Below, one piece after another: positions 3,090 through 17,306 of a stretch of DNA of 23,092 nucleotides. Both the position numbers and the translations under genes were made by a program. Within the stretch, counting starts at the first letter, position 1, and each line of letters opens with the position of its first letter. The stretch comes from a virus. The stretch is from positions 1-23,092 of the IMG/VR virus record IMGVR_UViG_3300027963_003677. The stretch is one strand, 5' to 3'. Under the pieces are notes generated by a model that was not told where the DNA came from, searched no databases, and saw only the letters and a list, made by a program, of their open reading frames with translations.

Positions 3090-3214
3090 AAAAGAAAATA
3101 ATTATATTAATACTGTCAGCAATATCTATTTTTATTGCAATTAATTTATTCTTTGCTTCAAGGCTTAGTCAATTATCAGACTTAGATTTATTTGACATTG
3201 AGGAAGATGATTAA
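3086..3214 (+). CDS. Small single-pass membrane protein (42 aa)
   Basis: The ATG overlaps the previous stop (ATGA), and the stop overlaps the next start (TAATG). The product has a basic start (MKKK), one hydrophobic helix (IIILILSAISIFIAINLFF) and a strongly acidic tail (DLDLFDIEEDD). That predicts an inserted peptide with an acidic extracellular or cytoplasmic tail. It could also be an uncleaved signal anchor. It is too small to assign. Confidence 0.65.
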   Translation: MKKKIIILILSAISIFIAINLFFASRLSQLSDLDLFDIEEDD

Positions 3215-4578: not shown

Positions 4579-5310
4579 ATGAAAAAACTGTTGGTCGTGA
4601 TGCCAGTGCATAATGATGGAATGTATATTGAAAGAGCAATAAATAGTATAATTAATCAAACATTTCAAAATTTTGTTTTATATATAGTTAATGACTTATC
4701 AACAGACGACTCTTTAAATAAAATAGAAAAATATTTACATAATCCAAAAATTAGATTAATAAATAATGAAAAAAATGGTGGATGTTTTTATAGTAAAAAT
4801 ATTGGAATTAGTTTATTAGAAACAGAAGATTTTGATGTTTACACTACACACGATGCAGATGATTTTTCTGACTCAACAAGGTTTGAAAAAGTAATGAATA
4901 TATTCAACAATGAAGATATAATTGCATTAGAAGATTATGAATTAAGAATAGGTGGAATGGTGCCAGATTGGTACAACAAGCCTGGAGAAACAATGCCAAA
5001 TCATGCTCATGCATTTTTTAGTAAAAAGGCTTTTAGTATATTTGGATATTATGATAATTTTTTTTGTGGGGCAGATACTGATTATTGGCATAGAGCAATA
5101 AAATATAGCAAAATAAATCCATCTTCCATAGTTTTTACATTGCCAGAATTACTATACTATGCACAAGTGACTGGGAATAACATGATATTGAGATATGGAA
5201 AAGAAATAAGAGATCCATATTTTAAAAAACATATGGCAGAGATTGATAAGATGAAAGAAGAGAAAGATTTTTATAGAGCATTTTTTAATATAGAGGAGGC
5301 AATAAAATGA
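4579..5310 (+). CDS. Family 2 (GT-A) glycosyltransferase
   Basis: The ATG is preceded by GGAG (4570-4573). The protein begins with the GT2 nucleotide-binding strand (LLVVMPVHNDGMYIERAINS), followed by LYIVNDLSTDD and the acidic DxD-type motif HDADD at residues 91-95, which would bind metal and the nucleotide-sugar. The 243-residue length fits a soluble single-domain GT2. It is the first gene after the terminator and overlaps the epimerase gene by 4 nt (ATGA). It probably transfers a sugar onto a growing glycan. Donor and acceptor cannot be read from the sequence. The codons are very AT-rich, more so than in the block to its left. Confidence 0.88.
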   Translation: MKKLLVVMPVHNDGMYIERAINSIINQTFQNFVLYIVNDLSTDDSLNKIEKYLHNPKIRLINNEKNGGCFYSKNIGISLLETEDFDVYTTHDADDFSDSTRFEKVMNIFNNEDIIALEDYELRIGGMVPDWYNKPGETMPNHAHAFFSKKAFSIFGYYDNFFCGADTDYWHRAIKYSKINPSSIVFTLPELLYYAQVTGNNMILRYGKEIRDPYFKKHMAEIDKMKEEKDFYRAFFNIEEAIK

Positions 5311-6206
5311 AATACTTAGTAACTGGCGGTGCTGGATTTATTGGATCAAACATAGTTGATTCTTTAGTTAAACTTGGTCACGAAGTTGTTGTTATTGATA
5401 ATGAGTCTTCTGAGTCTCACGATCATTTTTTTTGGAATGAAAATGCAAAAAATTATAAATTAGACATATGTGATTATGAAAATACAAGAAATCTTTACGA
5501 TGGAGTTGACTACGTATTTCATGTTGCAGCAGAAGCAAGAATACAGAGAACAATAAAAAATCCAATAAGATCTGTAAAAACAAATGTAGTTGGAACTACA
5601 ACAGTACTTCAATGTTCAAAAGAGGCAAACGTTAAAAGAGTTATATATTCTTCAACATCTTCCGCATATGGAAGAAATGAAATACCAAATGAAGAAACAC
5701 AGCCAGACGATTGTTTAAACCCATACTCAATTTCTAAAGTTGCTGGAGAAAAATTATGTTCAATGTATACAAATATTTTTGGGCTAGATACAATAATATT
5801 TAGATATTTTAATGTATATGGAGATAAGCATCCGACAAAAGGTGTGTATGCCCCAGTGATTGGACTATTTGATGTTCAAAAATTAAATGGTGAAAAATTA
5901 ACAATTGTTGGCGATGGAGAACAAAGAAGAGACTTTACAAATGTTAAAGATGTTGTAGATATAAACATAATTGCAACAACAAAGGATATTGATCGTAAAT
6001 ATTTTGGCAATGTTTTTAATGTTGGAACTGGAACAAATTATTCTGTGAATCAGATTGCATCTTTTATATCAGATAACACTATTAATATTCCAGAAAGACT
6101 TGGCGAGGCAAGAGAAACACTTGCAAGTATTAAAAAAGTAAAAGAAGTCTTTGGTTGGGAACCAACTATAACTTTAGATCAATGGTTTAAAGAGAGAAGT
6201 ATTTAG
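5307..6206 (+). CDS. NAD-dependent sugar-nucleotide epimerase/dehydratase (extended SDR)
   Basis: The protein begins MKYLVTGGAGFIGSN, with the GxxGxxG NAD-binding motif at residues 7-13, and has the catalytic Y-x-x-x-K as Y140-S-I-S-K144 preceded by SSTSSAYG. Family landmarks such as RYFNVYG and GDGEQRRDFTNVKDVV are present. Together these place it with UDP-glucose 4-epimerase-type enzymes. It most likely makes an activated sugar for the neighbouring glycosyltransferases. The 299-residue length is typical. The GTG start of the next gene overlaps its stop by one base. The exact substrate is not determinable from the sequence. Confidence 0.9.
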   Translation: MKYLVTGGAGFIGSNIVDSLVKLGHEVVVIDNESSESHDHFFWNENAKNYKLDICDYENTRNLYDGVDYVFHVAAEARIQRTIKNPIRSVKTNVVGTTTVLQCSKEANVKRVIYSSTSSAYGRNEIPNEETQPDDCLNPYSISKVAGEKLCSMYTNIFGLDTIIFRYFNVYGDKHPTKGVYAPVIGLFDVQKLNGEKLTIVGDGEQRRDFTNVKDVVDINIIATTKDIDRKYFGNVFNVGTGTNYSVNQIASFISDNTINIPERLGEARETLASIKKVKEVFGWEPTITLDQWFKERSI

Positions 6207-6916
6207 TGATAGAAGTCCTTAAAGAAGACTTTGTATATATATGTAAAGACGGAGTAAACGAAGAATTAAAGTATTCAATTAGGTCTGTTGTTGAAAGTTT
6301 TCCAGAAGCAACTATATGGCTTGTCGGTGGTAAGCCTGACTGGTATACAGGAAACTATATAAAAGTAGAACAAAAAGAATCAAAGTATAAGAATGCTGTA
6401 AAAAATTTAGAAACAATTTGTTTTTCACAAGAAATATCAGAATCTTTTATTTTAATGAATGATGATTTTTATATTATTAAAAAAATAGATAAAATAGAAA
6501 ATTTTCATAGTGGATTCTTGTTAGATAAAATAAACTTATATCAAAAATTAAATGGTAATTCTCAGTACACCAGAAAACTTTCAGGCACATATAAAAAACT
6601 CAAAGCCCTAGGATTTGAAAACCCCTTAGACTATGAACTCCACGTACCAATGATTATGGAAAAAGAAAAATTAAAAATAGTATTAGAACTTTTAGATCAA
6701 TTTTTATGGAGATCTATATACGGAAATAAGTTTAATGTAGGTGGCACACAAATGGAAGACGTTAAGGTTTACAATTCTGGACCGTTAGTTCTTAAGTCTT
6801 ATAATTTAAACATAGATGATCACACCTATTTGTCTAGTGCGGACAGTTCATTTAATAATATATTTAATAAAATACTTAAGACTAAGTTTAATAAAAAAAC
6901 TAGATTTGAGCAATAA
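6206..6916 (+). CDS. Putative glycosyltransferase or sugar-phosphate transferase (Stealth-like features)
   Basis: A GTG start at 6206 overlaps the preceding TAG. The sequence has a GT-A-like start (YSIRSVVESFPEATIWLVGG). It has a central acidic motif FILMNDDFYII, reminiscent of the NDDFF motif in Stealth-type capsule phosphotransferases, and later ELHVPMIMEK. The rest is unusually Asn/Lys-rich. The assignment is tentative: the context (after an epimerase and a GT2) supports a glycan enzyme. Its last 17 nt overlap the 3' end of the convergent minus-strand gene, with no terminator between them. Confidence 0.6.
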   Translation: MIEVLKEDFVYICKDGVNEELKYSIRSVVESFPEATIWLVGGKPDWYTGNYIKVEQKESKYKNAVKNLETICFSQEISESFILMNDDFYIIKKIDKIENFHSGFLLDKINLYQKLNGNSQYTRKLSGTYKKLKALGFENPLDYELHVPMIMEKEKLKIVLELLDQFLWRSIYGNKFNVGGTQMEDVKVYNSGPLVLKSYNLNIDDHTYLSSADSSFNNIFNKILKTKFNKKTRFEQ

Positions 6917-7937
6917 GTTCTAAGTATTTATCTTTCAATATTGTTGGTGCAAAGTTATTAAAGCCTAAATTATAAGCCTGCTGTTTGTAATTAGTTTTAT
7001 CATTAATAAACATATACTTGTCAATTGTTTGTGCTAATAAGACATTGTTTGCTTCAAATAAATTAATCCTAACCTTTGTTCTGATTGTTCCTATAGAATC
7101 TGACTCAACTAACCAGTTTTGTGGCAAGATCTGATTATTAGGTGAAACATTTGTCATAAAAACGGGAAGACCAGAAAGCAAAGCCTCATTCATTGGTAAA
7201 CATAATCCTGCATATCGTCTTGGCAATATCATAGCATCAAAGCCATCATACATATCTTCCCTGTTTTCTGGGTTGCCAATTTCAATCTTTAGTCTTGAGT
7301 CTGTTACATTAGTTACTATTTCACTTTGACTTCTAATAACTAATTCATAATCTGCTTTAGAGTGCTTTAGCATATTTATTACGGTTTCAGTACCGTTTCT
7401 ATCTTTGGCTGCCTTTTTTCCAGCAATGTGTAATAGCCTATTGTGTGATTTAGAGATGTTATTATTTTTTGCAGTTTCAAATAACTCAGGGGTAGTTGGA
7501 GGTGGAAGATGAATTACCTTTGTTCTATCTCCAAACATACTTTGAATTGTTTCAATTTGCCATAAACTGGGAGATAATAAGACGTTTGGCAAGGGCAGTT
7601 CTGGGTTTGCCAAGTGACCAAACAATTCATAGTTATACTGAAGAATGGTTTTTACTCCCCGTCTGTTTGCAAACCTTACAAAATTTTGATCATAAAAAGT
7701 TTCGCAACTTAATACAACGTCTACATCTCCTAAAAACATTTTAATTTGCTGAACAGACGGAAAACCTTGTGTCTTAATACAACTGTATTGGTCATACCAC
7801 TCTGGGTGCTGCTTGTTGTTATTAAACGGGGTAGAATCAATTAAAAAAATCTTATCAGGACTAAGCATATTAACTAACTCTTTAGTCTGATTACCAAGGC
7901 CAGTGTTATCTGATCTTGCTATGATTCCTAGTCTCAT
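6900..7937 (-). CDS. GT-B glycosyltransferase (family 4-like)
   Basis: The 345-residue protein starts MRLGIIARSDNTGLGNQT, a GT-B N-domain opening. A second-domain landmark, the region LPRRYAGLCLPMNEALLSG, matches the E-x7-E-type donor-binding motif of GT4 enzymes (here with Leu at the usual Gly-proximal acid position and Glu in NEAL). The IRSQSEIVTN and ENREDMYDGFDAMI segments lie where the Rossmann-like C-domain should be. It is the most distal gene of the long minus-strand operon, coupled to the one before it by ATGA. Donor and acceptor are unknown. Confidence 0.85.
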   Translation of the reverse strand: MRLGIIARSDNTGLGNQTKELVNMLSPDKIFLIDSTPFNNNKQHPEWYDQYSCIKTQGFPSVQQIKMFLGDVDVVLSCETFYDQNFVRFANRRGVKTILQYNYELFGHLANPELPLPNVLLSPSLWQIETIQSMFGDRTKVIHLPPPTTPELFETAKNNNISKSHNRLLHIAGKKAAKDRNGTETVINMLKHSKADYELVIRSQSEIVTNVTDSRLKIEIGNPENREDMYDGFDAMILPRRYAGLCLPMNEALLSGLPVFMTNVSPNNQILPQNWLVESDSIGTIRTKVRINLFEANNVLLAQTIDKYMFINDKTNYKQQAYNLGFNNFAPTILKDKYLELIAQI

Positions 7938-8695
7938 TCTTTATACCCCCAAGCATCATCATCCTTAGTATATTTTCTTGTACCCTGACGACCATCTAAG
8001 TGGTAAGAACGTTTAATATTTCCTTCTGGATGATAGATCCAAAGTTTATGCATGTCCCACCCTTCTTGACTAAAGGTATTATAAGGAAAGATATCATCCT
8101 GAACCTTGCCATGAAAATTATCTTCAATAAAAGTTTTTTCATCAGAAAATGGTAGGACTACATTTTTATAGTATTTTACAGTACTTAAATGTGGCCTCTG
8201 ACTCCACTGCGCTGTCTTCATAAAACCATTTTCTAACCCCATCATAAGATGTCTGTGTGGCTCTGGAATTTCTGATTCATAATGAAAACGAATGGTGTTG
8301 GCATTACCAAGTTCTATCATATTTAAACATTTTTGCCAGTCAATTTCTACGTCTGAAGTTAAAGGAGCGTCTCCTTCAACATAAAGCATTACAGAAGTAT
8401 CTATAAGTTTAATGGTTTTTTTCATCATCGTGGTTTGATGACTATGATAATCAAAAATTATTGGTAATATATTTTTGTATTTGTGTAAGCATTTCCACAA
8501 TATGCGGTTTTTATATTCATCGTAATCTTTTTTACGACCAAGTTGCTCATCCCTTAGTCCATCTATTTGCATAATTATTTCATTGTCTGGAAGGTGAACT
8601 CGTATATCATTAATAGTTTGTTCTATCATTGTAGTATTAGGATGATCTGGAATTATAGATGTTGCAAGAATTACGGTTATGTCTCTCTTATGCAT
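7934..8695 (-). CDS. Putative GT-A glycosyltransferase (253 aa)
   Basis: The protein opens with a nucleotide-sugar-binding-like strand (DITVILATSIIPDHPNT) and has VMLYVEGDAPLTSD near residue 120, in the position of a DxD-type motif (here EGD). The C-terminal third is rich in His, Trp and Tyr (EGWDMHKLWIYHPEG). This is the pattern of a small GT-A enzyme, as often found in phage glycan clusters, but the family is not firmly recognised. It overlaps its upstream neighbour by 8 nt (ATGCATAA) and its downstream neighbour by 4 nt. Confidence 0.65.
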   Translation of the reverse strand: MHKRDITVILATSIIPDHPNTTMIEQTINDIRVHLPDNEIIMQIDGLRDEQLGRKKDYDEYKNRILWKCLHKYKNILPIIFDYHSHQTTMMKKTIKLIDTSVMLYVEGDAPLTSDVEIDWQKCLNMIELGNANTIRFHYESEIPEPHRHLMMGLENGFMKTAQWSQRPHLSTVKYYKNVVLPFSDEKTFIEDNFHGKVQDDIFPYNTFSQEGWDMHKLWIYHPEGNIKRSYHLDGRQGTRKYTKDDDAWGYKE

Positions 8696-9536
8696 TTACT
8701 TGCCTCATTAACTTAATACTAAGATCTCTTTTATATTTTATCCACCAGCAAACTACTTGGTGCATATTTTGTGGATAGTTTTCAAGTAAGCCAGGCATTA
8801 TTTTTGTTAGATTATGCCAATTATCTGTAACCTGTATTGGAAAGTCTGTACCAAAAACAAGAGTAAAAAAGTTTGTCTCTTGCATTTTTGAGTTTAATCT
8901 ATCTCCTACTGGCAAACATAACATTTCTATAGCCTCATAAAATCTAAAAGAATCTATAACCTCAGCACCACTTGGACACGGAATAATTTTACTAATAAAC
9001 ATCTTGTCATAATATACTTTAGGAACTAAACCCTGTGCAAAACCAGTTGTTGGTTCATAAAAAGAGTTTGGTATTAATGGCATTACTTCTGCTAATTCTT
9101 TTCTTCTTACATGAGTTATTTGTCCCGCAAAAGATACATCATAGGATTTATCTTGATACTCTGGTAAGTTTTTACTCAAGTGTTGTGGAACACCAAGTGC
9201 TAATCTATTATATTTTTTATGTTTATCATGAGGACATGCAATCCATATCTCAATGTTGTTGTGTTTAATTTTATCTACATCAAAAGATCCACTTTCGTCA
9301 CCAGTAATAAATAAAACCACTCTATTTATTTTATTTAACTCATCAGATATTAATTCTTCATAACCTATGTTTTGTGGTCCAGGAACAACAACAAAAGCCC
9401 TGTCTTTATTAACTAAGTTTGTCACTCTTTCTGGAACAATTTTATTTTTATCAAAAAATTCTTTTAGTAAGCCGTAGTCCCACTTATCAGCAGCACAGTC
9501 TTCTTCTTTAACTGAATAAAGGTATGCGCTAATCAT
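8688..9536 (-). CDS. Exostosin-like (GT47-type) glycosyltransferase
   Basis: The 282-residue protein contains SYDVSFAGQITHVRRKEL, then a stretch that includes CPSGAEVIDSFRFYEAIEM followed by CLPV. The order 'F-x-G-x-x-x-x-x-R, then P-x-G-x-x-x-x-S-x-R-x-x-E-A' is typical of exostosin-like GT-B enzymes. It ends with a short basic helix. It is coupled by ATGA to the downstream gene and precedes the 253-aa GT-A-like gene. The role is glycan elongation by family analogy; the sugar is unknown. Confidence 0.75.
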   Translation of the reverse strand: MISAYLYSVKEEDCAADKWDYGLLKEFFDKNKIVPERVTNLVNKDRAFVVVPGPQNIGYEELISDELNKINRVVLFITGDESGSFDVDKIKHNNIEIWIACPHDKHKKYNRLALGVPQHLSKNLPEYQDKSYDVSFAGQITHVRRKELAEVMPLIPNSFYEPTTGFAQGLVPKVYYDKMFISKIIPCPSGAEVIDSFRFYEAIEMLCLPVGDRLNSKMQETNFFTLVFGTDFPIQVTDNWHNLTKIMPGLLENYPQNMHQVVCWWIKYKRDLSIKLMRQVNA

Positions 9537-10696
9537 TTTGTAGCCTTAACAAACATCCATTCAGGATGCATATGATCTGTAAAAATTAAGTTTTTAAATC
9601 CTACATCGTTTAATATTCTGTCAATTTCAAACCTTGATGTTTGATAAGAGTATGCAGAATTTTCTTCCCCAACAACAAATTGAAAGAATAAAATACCACC
9701 AACTTTTAATTTTTCATAAGCAAGTTTTATATATTTAATTTTTTCTTGGTGATCAATATGTTGAAAGACTAGCATTGAGTACACAAGATCAAGGTTGTCT
9801 GCAAGTTCTTGATACTTTATATTATCTTTCTTAGGTGCAAGTTTAATCATTTCATCAGATATGTCTATTCCGTAAAAGTTGCATTCATTATATTTCTCTG
9901 CAAGAGGAACGAGCAGCCTTCCTATTCCACATCCAATCTCTAAAACATTATTCCAAGAGTCATTATTATTTTCTATAAGATTTAAAAATGTTTCAGTAGG
10001 TGCCCACTCATCTGCAATATATTTATATCTTACATCTAAATCTTTTGCAGCATTGTCCCAAAAAACTTTAGCATGATCTGATATTAAAACTTCCCATAGT
10101 TCTTCTTTTACAATAAGTTGTGCAAATAATTCTTCATCTACAATATATGGATTGTTTGCGTATTTTATTTGTGAATCATATTTTTTTATTGCATTAGTTT
10201 TATTTTTTGTAAAGTTAGTGTTGATTTTTTTTAAACCACAAAGTGATGTAAAGATTTTTAATCTTGTTTCATACAAATCTTGATATGACAATTTGTATGG
10301 CAACTCAGCATATACAAAATATTTTTTATCAAAATGCTTCATTAAATTAAACAAGGTATCTGATAAAAATACGTGGTCTGGATGATGAATTCCTAGTGGA
10401 ATATATATATTATCAAAATCTACAATTATACTTTTTATCCAATTTATTAAATCATCTTCATTTTGTTTACCATAAACATCATCTAATAAATCTCCATTAA
10501 TAACTTTAGCATTTATCATAGAACAGGCTTCTTCATGTTCTTGTCTTAATATAGTGTGTTTTTTATATCCAGCATCATCTGTTGGTATGCCAGCGAATGC
10601 AGCAGCAATTGTGAAAATATTATCATTATCAATAATATAATCACCTAATGAAAAGATTGCATCATCTGTGTGTGCACAAAAGATTAGATTATTCAT
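9533..10696 (-). CDS. Fusion of PIG-L deacetylase and SAM-dependent methyltransferase
   Basis: Two domains are visible. Residues 1-~190 are PIG-L/LmbE-like: the zinc motif AHTDD (8-12) and the later HPDH (105-108), with KKYDSQIKY near the end of the domain. Residues ~200-387 are a class I methyltransferase with VLEIGCGIGRLL (251-262) and FYGIDISDEMI as the SAM loop. The chosen start MNNLIFCAH gives the normal PIG-L N-terminus and an 8-nt overlap with the upstream gene; an ATG at 10714 would add six residues without a better ribosome site. PIG-L enzymes remove N-acetyl groups from GlcNAc-type sugars, so the fusion could deacetylate and then methylate a sugar or lipid-linked glycan (inference). 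Confidence 0.85.
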   Translation of the reverse strand: MNNLIFCAHTDDAIFSLGDYIIDNDNIFTIAAAFAGIPTDDAGYKKHTILRQEHEEACSMINAKVINGDLLDDVYGKQNEDDLINWIKSIIVDFDNIYIPLGIHHPDHVFLSDTLFNLMKHFDKKYFVYAELPYKLSYQDLYETRLKIFTSLCGLKKINTNFTKNKTNAIKKYDSQIKYANNPYIVDEELFAQLIVKEELWEVLISDHAKVFWDNAAKDLDVRYKYIADEWAPTETFLNLIENNNDSWNNVLEIGCGIGRLLVPLAEKYNECNFYGIDISDEMIKLAPKKDNIKYQELADNLDLVYSMLVFQHIDHQEKIKYIKLAYEKLKVGGILFFQFVVGEENSAYSYQTSRFEIDRILNDVGFKNLIFTDHMHPEWMFVKATK

Positions 10697-11399
10697 AAAA
10701 TAAATGTACCTCATGTTGATAATCTAAAAGAGTTTCTTTATACCCAAACCCTTTTATCCATTGTCTAAGATTATATAAAGATTCACCCCATTGCTGTAAC
10801 ATGAATTCAGGGTGTCCAGATAACCAAATCTTAGGCTTATGCTGCTTAAGCACCTTCTCAGCCCCTCCTAGGACCCTCCATTCACTGCCCTCTACGTCCA
10901 AGGAAATGGCGGTAGGTGGCTTAATACCGTGATCATAAACACAAGAATCTATAGTTATCTGACCATAAGAATCACCTTCAAGGTATAATTCTTTAAAGCC
11001 ATGGGCAATATCAAGATATGGTTCTTCTGCTTCTGGAGGGAATGCGTTGTAATATATTCGTGAAAGATTGTTTATCTTGTCAGAAGCAAATCCAGGGATA
11101 CAGACCATTGGAAGTTTTAGATTATTAGCAGACCAAGTTAGTGGAAGATGGGACCATACTTTAGGATTAGGCTCAAACAATACAACTTCTGCTCCCCACA
11201 TTTGACAAAGCGCTGGAAACTCACCTTCTTCTGCACCAACATAATAAACAACATCGCCCTTACCAATGTTATTGTGCATTGATTTAAGCCTTAACTTTTC
11301 CCAACCTGCTTCACTATGCCATTCTGGTCTATCTGCACGGTGTTTTGGAAGCACAATTTCAAACTCTCCATTTAAAATTGTTTTAATCATCTCTATCAC
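10689..11399 (-). CDS. FkbM-family methyltransferase
   Basis: The start is a GTG at 11399 within a GTGA overlap with the upstream gene; an ATG three codons later is also possible. The protein has VVYYVGAEEGEFPAL as a diverged SAM-binding loop, VVLFEPNPKVW, and the FkbM hallmark AISLDVEGSEWRVLGGAEKVL split around the D-x-E-G-x-E motif. FkbM enzymes O-methylate sugars and secondary metabolites. The 236-residue length fits. Its place among glycosyltransferases argues for methylation of a glycan or of its sugar building block. Confidence 0.88.
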   Translation of the reverse strand: MIEMIKTILNGEFEIVLPKHRADRPEWHSEAGWEKLRLKSMHNNIGKGDVVYYVGAEEGEFPALCQMWGAEVVLFEPNPKVWSHLPLTWSANNLKLPMVCIPGFASDKINNLSRIYYNAFPPEAEEPYLDIAHGFKELYLEGDSYGQITIDSCVYDHGIKPPTAISLDVEGSEWRVLGGAEKVLKQHKPKIWLSGHPEFMLQQWGESLYNLRQWIKGFGYKETLLDYQHEVHLFYE

Positions 11400-11905
11400 T
11401 TCATTGCCTCCACAAAATAAAATTCATGCTCTCTTGTGTCAAGTTCATATATTTTTTCATTTGAATAATTTGTTTGTTTAAATTGTGTTTCAGCAAGATT
11501 ATTAAAACCAACAGCCTCCAGTTTATACTGCAATGCTTTACTTGTTAGCAATGATGACGACTGTGAATACCAAGTTAGCCATGCAGAAAATCTTTTATCT
11601 AAGTCATCTTCTGAATTAGGGAAAAAGTTGATGTTGTTATTTTTATATGCATCAAACCCAGACACGATATCTGGAAGACTAATTCTTACAACTCCAGTTG
11701 GCTTTAAGACTCTATAAAATTCTGACAACACCTTTTCAATATCATGATACTTAACACAACAAATTATTGCATGACAAACAAGAGTATCGCAAGAGTTGTC
11801 AGGGATTAAACTTAAATCTTTATATTCAGTTTTAAACTCTGGATCAAGATCTATGTTTGTCCAATCAGAAGGCTGAATGCTTCCACACCCAAAGTTTATA
11901 TTCAC
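11396..11905 (-). CDS. Small class I SAM-dependent methyltransferase (169 aa)
   Basis: A GTG start overlaps the upstream stop (GTGA). The protein opens almost at the SAM loop (MNINFGCGSIQ), then WTNIDLDPEF, and has the motif EFYRVLKPTGVVRISLPD typical of methyltransf_11/predicted SAM-dependent enzymes. It begins at motif I with no leading helix, so it is a minimal form of the fold. It lies between the dehydratase and the FkbM enzyme in a run of 4-nt overlaps. The substrate is unknown; a sugar or nucleotide sugar is likely from context. Confidence 0.85.
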   Translation of the reverse strand: MNINFGCGSIQPSDWTNIDLDPEFKTEYKDLSLIPDNSCDTLVCHAIICCVKYHDIEKVLSEFYRVLKPTGVVRISLPDIVSGFDAYKNNNINFFPNSEDDLDKRFSAWLTWYSQSSSLLTSKALQYKLEAVGFNNLAETQFKQTNYSNEKIYELDTREHEFYFVEAMK

Positions 11906-12831
11906 TTACTATCCATATAGAAATCAACAATTTCTCTCATGCTATCTTTCATATTATGATCTGGCTTCCAGTTAGTTTTTTCTTGCAGCAAGGAAGAATT
12001 CATAAACTGTTTTTTAATCTCAAATCCATCACTCTTAATTATCTCATGTTTGATTTCTTTACCAATGACACCTTTAACAATGTTAAATACTTCAAGGGTG
12101 GAATATCTTTCTCCAGATGATATGTTAAAAGATGGAATATTGTTTGTTTCTTCTCCGTATGCAAGAATGCTAGCGTATGCTGAAACAACATCTTTAACGT
12201 TAATATATTCTCTAATATCTCTTCCATCATTTCTTATTGTGAATAATGTATTTTCTTTGTATGCTTTTACAATTCCAGGAATTAATCTTTGTGTATTGTT
12301 ATCACCAGTTCCATAAATGTTGCAGGCGCGGGTAGTAACAATAGGCATACTATAAGTATTCCTATATGAGTTACACATAATGTCTGTAATAGACTTAGAT
12401 GCATCGTAAGGATATATTCCATTTAGAATGTGATCTTCAAAGTATTCATCATTAGTTAGTTCACCGTAGGCTTTATCGCTAGAGGCAACAATAATTGATT
12501 TGCACTCTTTGTATTCTCTTAATGACTCAAGAACATTTAAAGTGCCAACAGCGTTTGTATAAAATGTATTGTATGGATACTTAATTGAATCATAAGCCTG
12601 TGTCTGTGCTGCAAGATGAATGAAATAATCTGGTCTTGATTTTTCTATAAAGAAATCAACATCTACTTTATTATTAATACTTCCATACACCCTATTTACA
12701 TCTTTAGAAAGTTCTGTGCGACTATGCTCATCTTTTAGCAGTACAAATACGTTATAACCTAATGATAAATAGTGGTTTGATAGGTGAGATCCAAGCAGCC
12801 CTGTGGCACCAGTTATTGCTATATTTTTCAT
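11902..12831 (-). CDS. Sugar-nucleotide dehydratase/epimerase (extended SDR)
   Basis: The NAD(P) motif GATGLLG lies at residues 8-14, and the catalytic Y-x-x-x-K is Y142-D-A-S-K146. SSDKAYG before the active site resembles CDP-glucose and GDP-mannose 4,6-dehydratases, where the D-K pair lies in the same place. RACNIYG and DGRDIREYINVKDV follow in the usual order. It most likely builds a deoxy or otherwise modified nucleotide-sugar for this cluster. Length (309) and motif order are normal. It is coupled by ATGA to the upstream glycosyltransferase gene. Confidence 0.88.
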   Translation of the reverse strand: MKNIAITGATGLLGSHLSNHYLSLGYNVFVLLKDEHSRTELSKDVNRVYGSINNKVDVDFFIEKSRPDYFIHLAAQTQAYDSIKYPYNTFYTNAVGTLNVLESLREYKECKSIIVASSDKAYGELTNDEYFEDHILNGIYPYDASKSITDIMCNSYRNTYSMPIVTTRACNIYGTGDNNTQRLIPGIVKAYKENTLFTIRNDGRDIREYINVKDVVSAYASILAYGEETNNIPSFNISSGERYSTLEVFNIVKGVIGKEIKHEIIKSDGFEIKKQFMNSSLLQEKTNWKPDHNMKDSMREIVDFYMDSK

Positions 12832-13787
12832 TTTATCCCCAATTCACTTATAATTGTACCCCATCTGTGAACGTAGGTGTGCTCTTTTTTTGTTCTTTCG
12901 TGTCCTTTAAGTCTAATTGCTTCTCTTGATACCCCGTCTAATAAATACTTATCTATCTTATTTTTTAGATCTTCAAGGTTACCGTGTTCATAAAATACAA
13001 TTTCATCTTCATCTTTAAAGTATTCTTCAAGACCCTTAATGCGAGGGTAAATAGTAAACCCACCACGACCAGTACTCTCAAACAACCTATCGCTAGTGTA
13101 GTAAGGATAGTTAAAGTTAATGTTTAAACTATCACCTATCGCTACCTTGCTTTTAGCATAGATACGGTTTAATTCATGACCACGTACAGTTCCAGTATCC
13201 CCATCTCCACCAACGTGTAAGAATCTCTTACCGTAGGTCTTTCTTAAAAAGTCTATTAATTCTGGACGGTATTTATGTTCATGATGATAACCCTTACTAC
13301 CAACAAAGATAATATCATTTTCAAAGTTATATGGATCGTAATTTTCATGGATATAACATTCTTTGTCATACACTCCAGCAGGTAGGAAGTGTCCTTTAAC
13401 CTTTGTGTTTTCATTAAACCAATCACACATTAACTTATCTGTAGCAAAAAAGTGACCGATGTTTGTATAAAAGTCATCATTCTTTAAATCTTTTTCACGT
13501 TCAATTCCAAACCACAAATCTAAATGGTAAGTCATGGTCGGTATGCCAGCAGCCTTTAATTCTTTTAATACATCTGTCATTGTTTTAGATCCTGGGGTTT
13601 GCCATCTGTGTGTATGTACCCAGATGAATAGATCAGAGTTTGATGATGCGTTTAATATTTCTTCGCTTGTTGCTTTCTTTTCCTGCAATTTTTGCACGGT
13701 ATGGCCAAGGTACTCTAAAGACTTAGCGTGATGATTCTCACTACTATAAGATACCTCAAAGTTACCAAGAAAGACTATGTTAGCCAT
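12828..13787 (-). CDS. GT-B glycosyltransferase (CgeB/Glyco_trans_1_2 type)
   Basis: The 319-residue protein has MANIVFLGNFEVSYSSENHH at the start. Its C-terminal half has RLFESTGRGGFTIYPRIKGL, EEYFKDEDEIVFYEHGNLEDL and GHERTKKEHTYVHRW. This order matches the Glyco_trans_1_2 domain of CgeB-like spore or surface glycosyltransferases. It overlaps the upstream small gene by 8 nt (ATGGCTAA). The acceptor is unknown. The gene is somewhat less AT-rich than its neighbours, so it may have joined the cluster separately (impression only). Confidence 0.85.
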   Translation of the reverse strand: MANIVFLGNFEVSYSSENHHAKSLEYLGHTVQKLQEKKATSEEILNASSNSDLFIWVHTHRWQTPGSKTMTDVLKELKAAGIPTMTYHLDLWFGIEREKDLKNDDFYTNIGHFFATDKLMCDWFNENTKVKGHFLPAGVYDKECYIHENYDPYNFENDIIFVGSKGYHHEHKYRPELIDFLRKTYGKRFLHVGGDGDTGTVRGHELNRIYAKSKVAIGDSLNINFNYPYYTSDRLFESTGRGGFTIYPRIKGLEEYFKDEDEIVFYEHGNLEDLKNKIDKYLLDGVSREAIRLKGHERTKKEHTYVHRWGTIISELGIK

Positions 13788-15671: not shown

Positions 15672-15830
15672 TTAATATTCAAGTGATACCCAAAACCAAA
15701 GAAAATCAATATTAGTATTGAATCTATCTATGCTAAACCCTAACGCAATTCTGCGGGGATTAAAACCAACACCAAGCCAAACTCTATTACTAACTCTCCA
15801 CTCTTTACTTTTAATCATAAGTTTCACCAT
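15672..15830 (-). CDS. Small basic/aromatic hypothetical protein (52 aa)
   Basis: It starts MVKLMIKSKEWRVSNRVW and ends DFLWFWVSLEY, with GFNPRRIALGFSIDRF between, a likely small beta-rich fold. The ATG at 15828-15830 lies within the end of the upstream gene (20-nt overlap). A Met four residues in is an alternative start. There are no cysteines. The repeated aromatic and alternating hydrophobic pattern suggests a real structured protein, but the function is unknown. Confidence 0.6.
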   Translation of the reverse strand: MVKLMIKSKEWRVSNRVWLGVGFNPRRIALGFSIDRFNTNIDFLWFWVSLEY

Positions 15831-15990
15831 TCTGTGAATATGCCTGGTTTAAAAACTCATCTGCCCAAAAGGCTGCAAGTGATTCATTGCCTACATCATT
15901 AAAGTAATAGCGATTTTTTTCAGGGCTGTAAGTCCAACCCTTCCAAAGGTTAACATCCTCTTCCGCCCAAGTAAGGTTATCAGCCATCAT
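15811..15990 (-). CDS. Small acidic hypothetical protein (59 aa)
   Basis: Tandem ATGs occur at 15990 and 15987; the first gives an ATGA overlap with the upstream gene and better spacing from AAAGAG. The product contains LTWAEEDVNLWKGWTY and AAFWADEFLNQA, is acidic and Trp/Tyr-rich, and has no cysteines. It resembles the 54-aa protein at 20111-20275 in its closing pattern (L-x-x-F/L-W-A-D/E). Relatedness is possible but unproven. Confidence 0.6.
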   Translation of the reverse strand: MMADNLTWAEEDVNLWKGWTYSPEKNRYYFNDVGNESLAAFWADEFLNQAYSQNGETYD

Positions 15991-16166
15991 TTTGTCAACT
16001 CTTTTTCAATAGCCTGAATGGTTTGACAAGGCCAAGGTTTTTTATCTTCTTGGCATCTATGAAATAATGTGCCTTCTGGGATATGAAGTTCGGCGACAGC
16101 ACGAAGAGCCTCATCTAGGTTAAAAGATCCAGATGCGGAAATAAGGTTTGGTATATTATTTATAAT
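15987..16166 (-). CDS. Small protein with apparent ATT start codon (59 aa)
   Basis: No ATG, GTG or TTG lies in frame before the conserved-looking body, and the frame is closed by TAA upstream. An ATT at 16164-16166 sits six bases after a perfect AGGAG. It overlaps the upstream stop by one base (TAATT), just as other genes here use TAATG. The product would read M-INNIPNLISASGSFNLDE, then LRAVAELHIPEG and FHRCQEDKKPWPCQ with two cysteines 9 apart. Coding is supported by the overlaps at both ends. Non-AUG initiation at AUU is known in bacteria (infC), but its use here is inference. Confidence 0.6.
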   Translation of the reverse strand: MINNIPNLISASGSFNLDEALRAVAELHIPEGTLFHRCQEDKKPWPCQTIQAIEKELTK

Positions 16167-16315
16167 TAGATACTCCTGACGTCTGGGCTTTTAAGATAAA
16201 AAATTAATGTCATTTTGCTACCGCAAGGGCAGTGAAAGTTATAGTCTAATTCTTTATGGATTTCCATATGAATCGTTGTCTCGCATCTTTCGCAAACAAA
16301 CTCGTAGGTATGCAT
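16166..16315 (-). CDS. Zinc-ribbon miniprotein (49 aa)
   Basis: The 49-residue gene starts MHTYEFVCERCETTIHM and has HCPCGSKM, giving C8/C11 and C29/C31 for one zinc, as in FmdB-like or other small ribbons. It is the first gene of the leftward cluster and follows a strong promoter whose -10 ends six bases before the ATG, so it is probably translated from a leaderless mRNA. Its stop overlaps the ATT start of the next gene. Confidence 0.72.
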   Translation of the reverse strand: MHTYEFVCERCETTIHMEIHKELDYNFHCPCGSKMTLIFYLKSPDVRSI

Positions 16316-16321
16316 CTACCT

Positions 16322-16350
16322 AGTGTATCAAAGTTCGGCGGTAAAGTCAA
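16322..16350 (-). promoter_or_regulatory. Leaderless-type promoter of the small-gene cluster
   Basis: On the minus strand, TTGACT (16345-16350), 17 bp, TACACT (16322-16327). Six bases then lead to ATG 16315. It lies just left of the repeat-rich gap and drives the genes running leftward from 16315, possibly as far as the glycan operon. Confidence 0.78.
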
Positions 16351-16446
16351 GGCGCAAAATGGAACTATCAAACCTTCCAATGCCCTATACGGGCACTATC
16401 GGTTATTAGGTTTGATATGCCTTTAGGTGGTATGATGGAAGATTAA

Positions 16447-16517
16447 TTCAGGTTCCTATAATGGTCGTAGAGCGGTTTCCGAAACCGATAATGCAGGTCC
16501 GATTCCTGTACCTGAAG
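16447..16517 (+). tRNA. Diverged tRNA-Arg-like gene, anticodon CCG
   Basis: A 71-nt plus-strand stretch folds as a cloverleaf. It has a perfect 7-bp acceptor (TTCAGGT with ACCTGAA), a 4-bp D stem (CTAT/GTAG) with GG in the loop, and an anticodon stem CGGT/ACCG with loop TTCCGAA (anticodon CCG). The variable loop is 4 nt and the T stem is 5 bp (GCAGG/CCTGT). U33, A37, A14, G18-G19, C56 and A58 are kept. Deviations are a G-A pair at the base of the anticodon stem, C instead of T55 and C at position 21. It ends G-CC-T, so CCA is not fully encoded. It lies against all surrounding genes and inside the repeat array. Confidence 0.62.
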
Positions 16518-17285
16518 CCTAAAATTTCGGCGGGTATAGAAAGAATGTCGTAATCCCCCTAGTGTAATAACAAACCTTTCAAACCTTATAGCCTGATATC
16601 CCCATAGCCAGATAGTCCAGATAGCCAGAAAGTAAGGTTTGAACCTATGTGCAACTATCTGGTTTGATAATGAGAATATGCACAATATGGATCCAGGGCG
16701 ATGGTTTGATACCCGCTGATTTAAGGCTTTAAAGGCTAATCTGATACCCTATGGGAGGTTTGATAAGAGAAATAAATCTTACTGATATTTTTTAATTATA
16801 GTTAAAAGGGAGGAAAGTGGAGGATAGTGGGTGATTGGGCGATTTTATAGATGGCGTCGTAATCCTCTGGCGGCCAAACCTCCCTATCCCAAACCTCTCA
16901 AACCTTCCTATCCCCATATCTGGCATGCATTATACCCCCAAAACCATGGTTTGTCAACTCTAAAACCCCTATAAAAACATAACGAAAAAGTTATAAAATG
17001 TTTTAAAACACCAGGAAAAAATCTAGAAAGGTTTGATAACTATGGTAAAAGTTTTAAATAATTCGCAATTTAAATTCCCGCTTCGTAATGTCTATTTATA
17101 CTAGGACTCAGCGCCCCGCGGGGACGCAAAAACGGCGGGGATAAAAAGATATACCAATACTCCTAGTAGTATACAAACCATATCTTCTGGATATAAAGGT
17201 TTGGCAGATATGAGGTTTGAAGGTTTGATATAGAAAGGTTTGAAGGTTTGATATGAATCTGGAAAATTCTACAGATGTCGTAATC

Positions 17286-17306
17286 TCCCACGATCTGGGA
17301 TTTTTT
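17286..17306 (+). terminator. Weak terminator-like hairpin with T run
   Basis: TCCCA (17286-17290) pairs with TGGGA (17296-17300) around CGATC, followed by six T residues (17301-17306). The orientation would end a plus-strand transcript coming through the gene-free gap. No plus-strand protein gene is present, so it could end a non-coding RNA or be fortuitous. Confidence 0.3.

Follow-up and report, generated by a model that had tools for sequence, protein, structure and literature searches.

A small phage gene that has lost its ATG start codon and may still be translated from a near-cognate isoleucine codon

A 59-codon gene in the window (the whole stretch of DNA analysed, 23,092 nucleotides of IMG/VR record IMGVR_UViG_3300027963_003677) has an intact body and no canonical start. 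Codon alignment with related phage contigs places its start by descent at 16163-16161, one codon downstream of the ATT from which an earlier note on this DNA had it begin, and that codon is now ATA. The best single reading, in which our confidence is about even, is that the gene is still translated weakly from a near-cognate AUA or AUU. Its product is a small phage protein to which no function is assigned. The features of the region are as follows.

16345 to 16350, minus strand: -35-like box TTGACT, taken from the sequence, 17 nt before the -10-like box
16322 to 16327, minus strand: -10-like box TACACT, compared with relatives; the upstream open reading frame (ORF) has its ATG 6 nt further on, a leaderless-like layout
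16166 to 16315, minus strand: upstream ORF for a Cys-rich (zinc-ribbon-like) protein of 49 amino acids, its stop overlapping the ATT
16173 to 16177, minus strand: Shine-Dalgarno (SD) sequence AGGAG, inside the upstream ORF at its 3' end; contigs L002, L004 and L005 share it with the window
16164 to 16166, minus strand: ATT, the start proposed by the earlier note, overlapping the upstream TAA as TAATT, 6 nt from AGGAG, not conserved as a start
16161 to 16163, minus strand: ATA, the favoured start position, 9 nt from AGGAG; in the alignment, 16 of 19 close relatives have their ATG start here
15987 to 16166, minus strand: 59-codon frame of a small phage protein family (ALRAVAELH...PWPCQTIQAIEKEL), with an intact body and without a usable ATG, GTG or TTG
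15811 to 15990, minus strand: next ORF (MMADNLTWAEED..., the NLTWAEED ORF), whose start overlaps the stop of the 59-amino-acid gene as ATGA

The ORF list and its translation give an intact frame of 59 codons plus a stop at 16166-15987, encoding IINNIPNLISASGSFNLDEALRAVAELHIPEGTLFHRCQEDKKPWPCQTIQAIEKELTK. This frame is open from 16190, after an in-frame stop, to 15987, and contains a single canonical start triplet, a TTG lying three codons short of the end; the earlier note was thus right that a stop bounds the frame upstream and that no ATG, GTG or TTG precedes the body. Its description of the junctions was accurate as well. Six bases (TATCTA) separate a perfect AGGAG (16177-16173) from the ATT (16166-16164), the upstream ORF (16315-16166) ends in a TAA at 16168-16166 that overlaps the ATT as TAATT, and the stop of the 59-codon frame overlaps the ATG of the next ORF, at 15990, as ATGA. 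Gene coordinates and start contexts place further TAATG junctions in the window at 3214 and 18600, and a TAGTG at 6206. The stop/start overlap of termination-reinitiation pairs is therefore present at the ATGA end and, with ATT as the start, at TAATT; the ATA lies 2 nt beyond the upstream stop. At the other AGGAG genes of the window, the spacing to the start is 4-8 nt, with 6 nt the most frequent. RNA folding around the start shows nothing unusual (z -0.9 to 0).

The frame is confirmed as a real gene, not a chance frame, by the 19 contigs that encode close relatives of its protein. Relatives are carried by 27 IMG/VR contigs, and an alignment search added one more (L052); the 19 are the close members. 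Pfam gave no match to the protein and PHROG only weak ones, to small phage proteins; DNA and protein searches of INPHARED phages with the gene gave no match, and a GTDB genome search gave a single distant match, to a MAG. An AlphaFold model (mean pLDDT 63) was too poor for a structure search.

To place the ancestral start, we counted codons from the window ATT as codon 1. The 16 relatives with ATG at codon 2, among them L005, encode proteins beginning MKNISNLI or MKNLSNLI (MKNIANLI in L014), with M at that codon. Codon 2 is ATA in the window, L002 and L004, all of which read ATT ATA AAT AAT ATA CCA, and independently in L015, which reads ATG ATA AAG, its codon-2 start lost and an ATG immediately in front. 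L005, which has the upstream gene, AGGAG and TAATT overlap in common with the window, reads ATT ATG AAA AAT CTA TCA. Codon 1 across the relatives is GTA, GTG, CTG, ATG, CAA, CGA, TAT or ATT. Because the ATG of the relatives aligns with codon 2 while codon 1 varies, the start by descent is, on this alignment, codon 2. An ATG, GTG or TTG at the ATT position of relatives had been suggested as confirmation of the ATT start; instead, that position holds no conserved start, and the homologues begin elsewhere, one codon downstream, an outcome the earlier note had named as counting against its proposal. What stands of that proposal is the lack of a canonical start and the 6-nt spacing, the latter keeping ATT a candidate; homology favours codon 2.

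In nine relatives (L003, L007-L011, L014, L016 and L052), TTGNNN-17-TATGAT ends exactly 6 nt short of the codon-2 ATG, which has no SD in front. The usual distance from a -10 box to the transcript start makes an ATG 6 nt downstream the first transcribed triplet. A leaderless arrangement is predicted for these nine, in which codon 1 would not be transcribed, and its position outside the predicted transcript supports codon 2 as the ancestral start. The layout of the window zinc-ribbon ORF, TTGACT-17-TACACT-6-ATG, mirrors that of the 59-amino-acid gene in the nine relatives. This promoter-like TTGNNN-17-TATGAT/TACACT pattern exactly 6 nt before an ATG without SD, seen both there (16313-16350, minus strand) and in the nine relatives, gives a number of small genes in these phages a leaderless look.

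The zinc-ribbon ORF is paired with the 59-amino-acid gene in four contigs only: the window, L002, L004 and L005. In L057-L060 the zinc-ribbon ORF runs directly into the NLTWAEED ORF via TAATGG, with no 59-amino-acid gene between. Since these contigs join both neighbours without it, the gene has the look of a cassette that entered between them in the window lineage, where it appears to have come to depend on AGGAG instead. Around 15830, the NLTWAEED ORF of the window has CAG where L002, L004 and L005 have TAG; it reads through and overlaps the next ORF. The intergenic stretch at 16320-17300 contains many repeats resembling AGGTTTGATA, and a tRNA-Arg(ccg) is predicted at 16447-16519.

Three assemblies confirm the change from ATG to ATA as genuine. 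The junction ATTATAAATAATATACC is identical in the window, L002 and L004, contigs from different metagenomes that differ in flanks and body alleles, and two changes are linked to it, K to N at codon 3 and S to P at codon 6. The three bodies have no stops or indels and keep all family-invariant residues. No second copy with ATG was found in the contig records examined. L032 and L033, considered as further junctions without ATG, proved to be chance pattern matches, their gene having an upstream in-frame ATG.

In a survey of related phage contigs (about 760 kb) that asked for an SD and a conserved body with no canonical codon close by, just two genes remained, the 59-amino-acid gene (in three contigs) and the zinc-ribbon gene of L066; a first version, before the SD and the lack of a close canonical codon were required, was swamped by antisense frames. 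At 2001 of L066 (G021:C1:3098, plus strand), the zinc-ribbon ORF has ATT at a TAATT, in contrast to the ATG of its closest relative, L067 (TAATG), and of the rest of the family. An SD-less TTG in the same frame, 21 nt further upstream, makes L066 the weaker case. A small MCPNC...CxxC gene in L114 (G012; about 15953, plus strand) reads ATA TAT CCA AAC TAT, its start and both cysteines of the first zinc knuckle lost through G-to-A changes, which looks like decay. L121 was rejected as an unrelated chance match.

What is observed, then, is the absence of a canonical start, the ancestral ATG position, ATA in three contigs, the SD, the overlap and the intact body; the translation, its coupling, the codon used and the host are inferred. 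The phage gene would have begun with ATG at 16163-16161, which became ATA in the lineage that the window shares with L002 and L004. Ribosomes finishing the 49-amino-acid upstream ORF at its TAA would be held by the AGGAG 6-9 nt away, and fMet-tRNA could then initiate on a near-cognate isoleucine codon, AUA or, slightly less likely, AUU one codon before, giving a low-level product via stop/start coupling. In favour of near-cognate initiation, the frame is open and AGGAG is kept in three contigs with different body alleles; against it, the 9-nt spacing from AGGAG to ATA exceeds the 4-8 nt of the other AGGAG genes in the window, and both group-specific changes (codons 3 and 6) alter amino acids near the N-terminus, which fits relaxed constraint. 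We count the two codons as one start site. ATA has a slight edge by homology, lying at the spacing of the L005 ATG, and ATT stays in play by its 6-nt spacing. Nothing was found for a tRNA-based explanation, the window encoding only tRNA-Arg(ccg) and tRNA-Asp(gtc). The host is probably a low-GC actinobacterium, since the L004 record carries a WhiB gene (Pfam Whib, E 3e-10), and the low G+C fits the freshwater Nanopelagicales group. The window also holds two runs of sugar-modification genes, at 4579-6203 and 6903-13787 (epimerases, glycosyltransferases, methyltransferases, PIG-L).

The main rival, a serious contender that we place somewhat below even, is recent silencing, in which the change from ATG to ATA abolished expression, or almost did, while the body is as yet undecayed, helped by recombination with intact alleles. 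The window and L002 differ at seven synonymous sites and one nonsynonymous site (dN/dS 0.035), but so low a ratio is no proof that the gene was still translated once its ATG had gone. Not one variant in the three no-ATG bodies is private, each recurring in another family member, so that selection after the loss is not measurable from them. Little independent history since the loss is visible, and the body differences may predate it, shuffled by recombination. Silencing would also suit the two group-specific changes, both nonsynonymous and adjoining the lost start, the optional nature of a gene that L057-L060 do without between the same neighbours, and the decay-like fate of the G012 gene, which lost its ATG to ATA together with its cysteines. 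It sits less well with the retention of the open frame and AGGAG in all three contigs, whose body alleles and flanks differ, nor is the junction brand new, the upstream genes of the contigs sharing it differing at 4-9 of 119 sites.

That the AUU at 16166 is an evolved, used start replacing the old one a codon later, as first proposed, we think unlikely; this estimate overlaps with that for near-cognate initiation, which admits either codon. The 6-nt spacing, commonest in the window, and the TAATT overlap speak for it, as do the L066 zinc-ribbon ORF, with TAATT where relatives have TAATG, and L015, whose only ATG is at the codon-1 position. However, codon 1 is unconserved (GTA, CAA, CGA or TAT in several relatives), L005 already has ATT beside its codon-2 ATG, so that ATT is no replacement start, and L066 offers its upstream TTG as an alternative.

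It is improbable that selection downgraded the start from ATG to ATA/ATT, keeping protein levels low and responsive to IF3 or to the state of ribosome recycling; were it so, the TAATT start of L066 would be a second case of such tuning at stop/start overlaps. A fusion protein, made by ribosomes that undergo a -1 frameshift late in the upstream ORF and so enter the 59-codon frame, is very improbable: the window frame is indeed open for 24 nt upstream of the ATT, overlapping the upstream ORF, but L002 has an in-frame TAG that leaves an overlap of 9 nt only, no X-XXY-YYZ slippery site is present in the sequence, and most relatives have no upstream gene in front of the 59-amino-acid gene. Metagenomic contigs can carry errors, but a sequencing or assembly error that made the ATG a non-start has a negligible chance with the same junction and linked codon-3 and codon-6 changes in three contigs from different metagenomes, and the misreading of ATG as ATT raised in the earlier note is likewise very unlikely.

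Weak near-cognate initiation has verified bacterial counterparts. In S. aureus, AUU (cvfC1) and AUA (ccpN, citZ) starts give about 10-30% of AUG expression, and infC uses AUA; these starts have extended SDs and conserved codons and were mapped by ribosome profiling (PMC13009471). They too are small or regulatory genes with a near-cognate AUN start behind an SD, and cvfC1, a 61-amino-acid possible zinc-finger protein, is of similarly small size (PMC13009471). Like dedicated AUU/AUA-start genes, the window gene has no canonical in-frame start, an intact conserved body and an SD in front. Unlike the S. aureus cases, the SD is AGGAG and not an extended one, the non-canonical start is not conserved across relatives, which use ATG, and translation is putative. 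AUU at infC serves autocontrol by IF3 in E. coli (ATC in Streptomyces), and the GTC start of Streptomyces sigR is repressed by IF3 (PMC5472188). The non-canonical start is a likeness, and Streptomyces, like the probable host here, belongs to the actinobacteria; however, the 59-amino-acid protein is not IF3 and is unrelated to these products, so that any link to IF3 would be by analogy. In the coat-lysis UAAUG coupling of RNA phage GA, a phage operon likewise has a 1-nt stop/start overlap, and in an E. coli reporter without SD, changing UAAUG to UAAUA abolished downstream reading (PMC9955659), a result that speaks against near-cognate initiation in the window gene. Here the overlap is UAAUU, or the start lies 3 nt on, and an SD is present that the GA model lacks.

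Gene callers that accept only ATG, GTG or TTG would miss this gene in three of the 20 close-family contigs but find it in the others. If the gene is translated, L005 (ATT ATG) and the window (ATT ATA) form a natural pair with almost identical junctions, which would gauge the cost of start-codon loss in an SD-led, stop-overlapping context, and its near-cognate start would be a further instance of the verified bacterial AUU/AUA starts.
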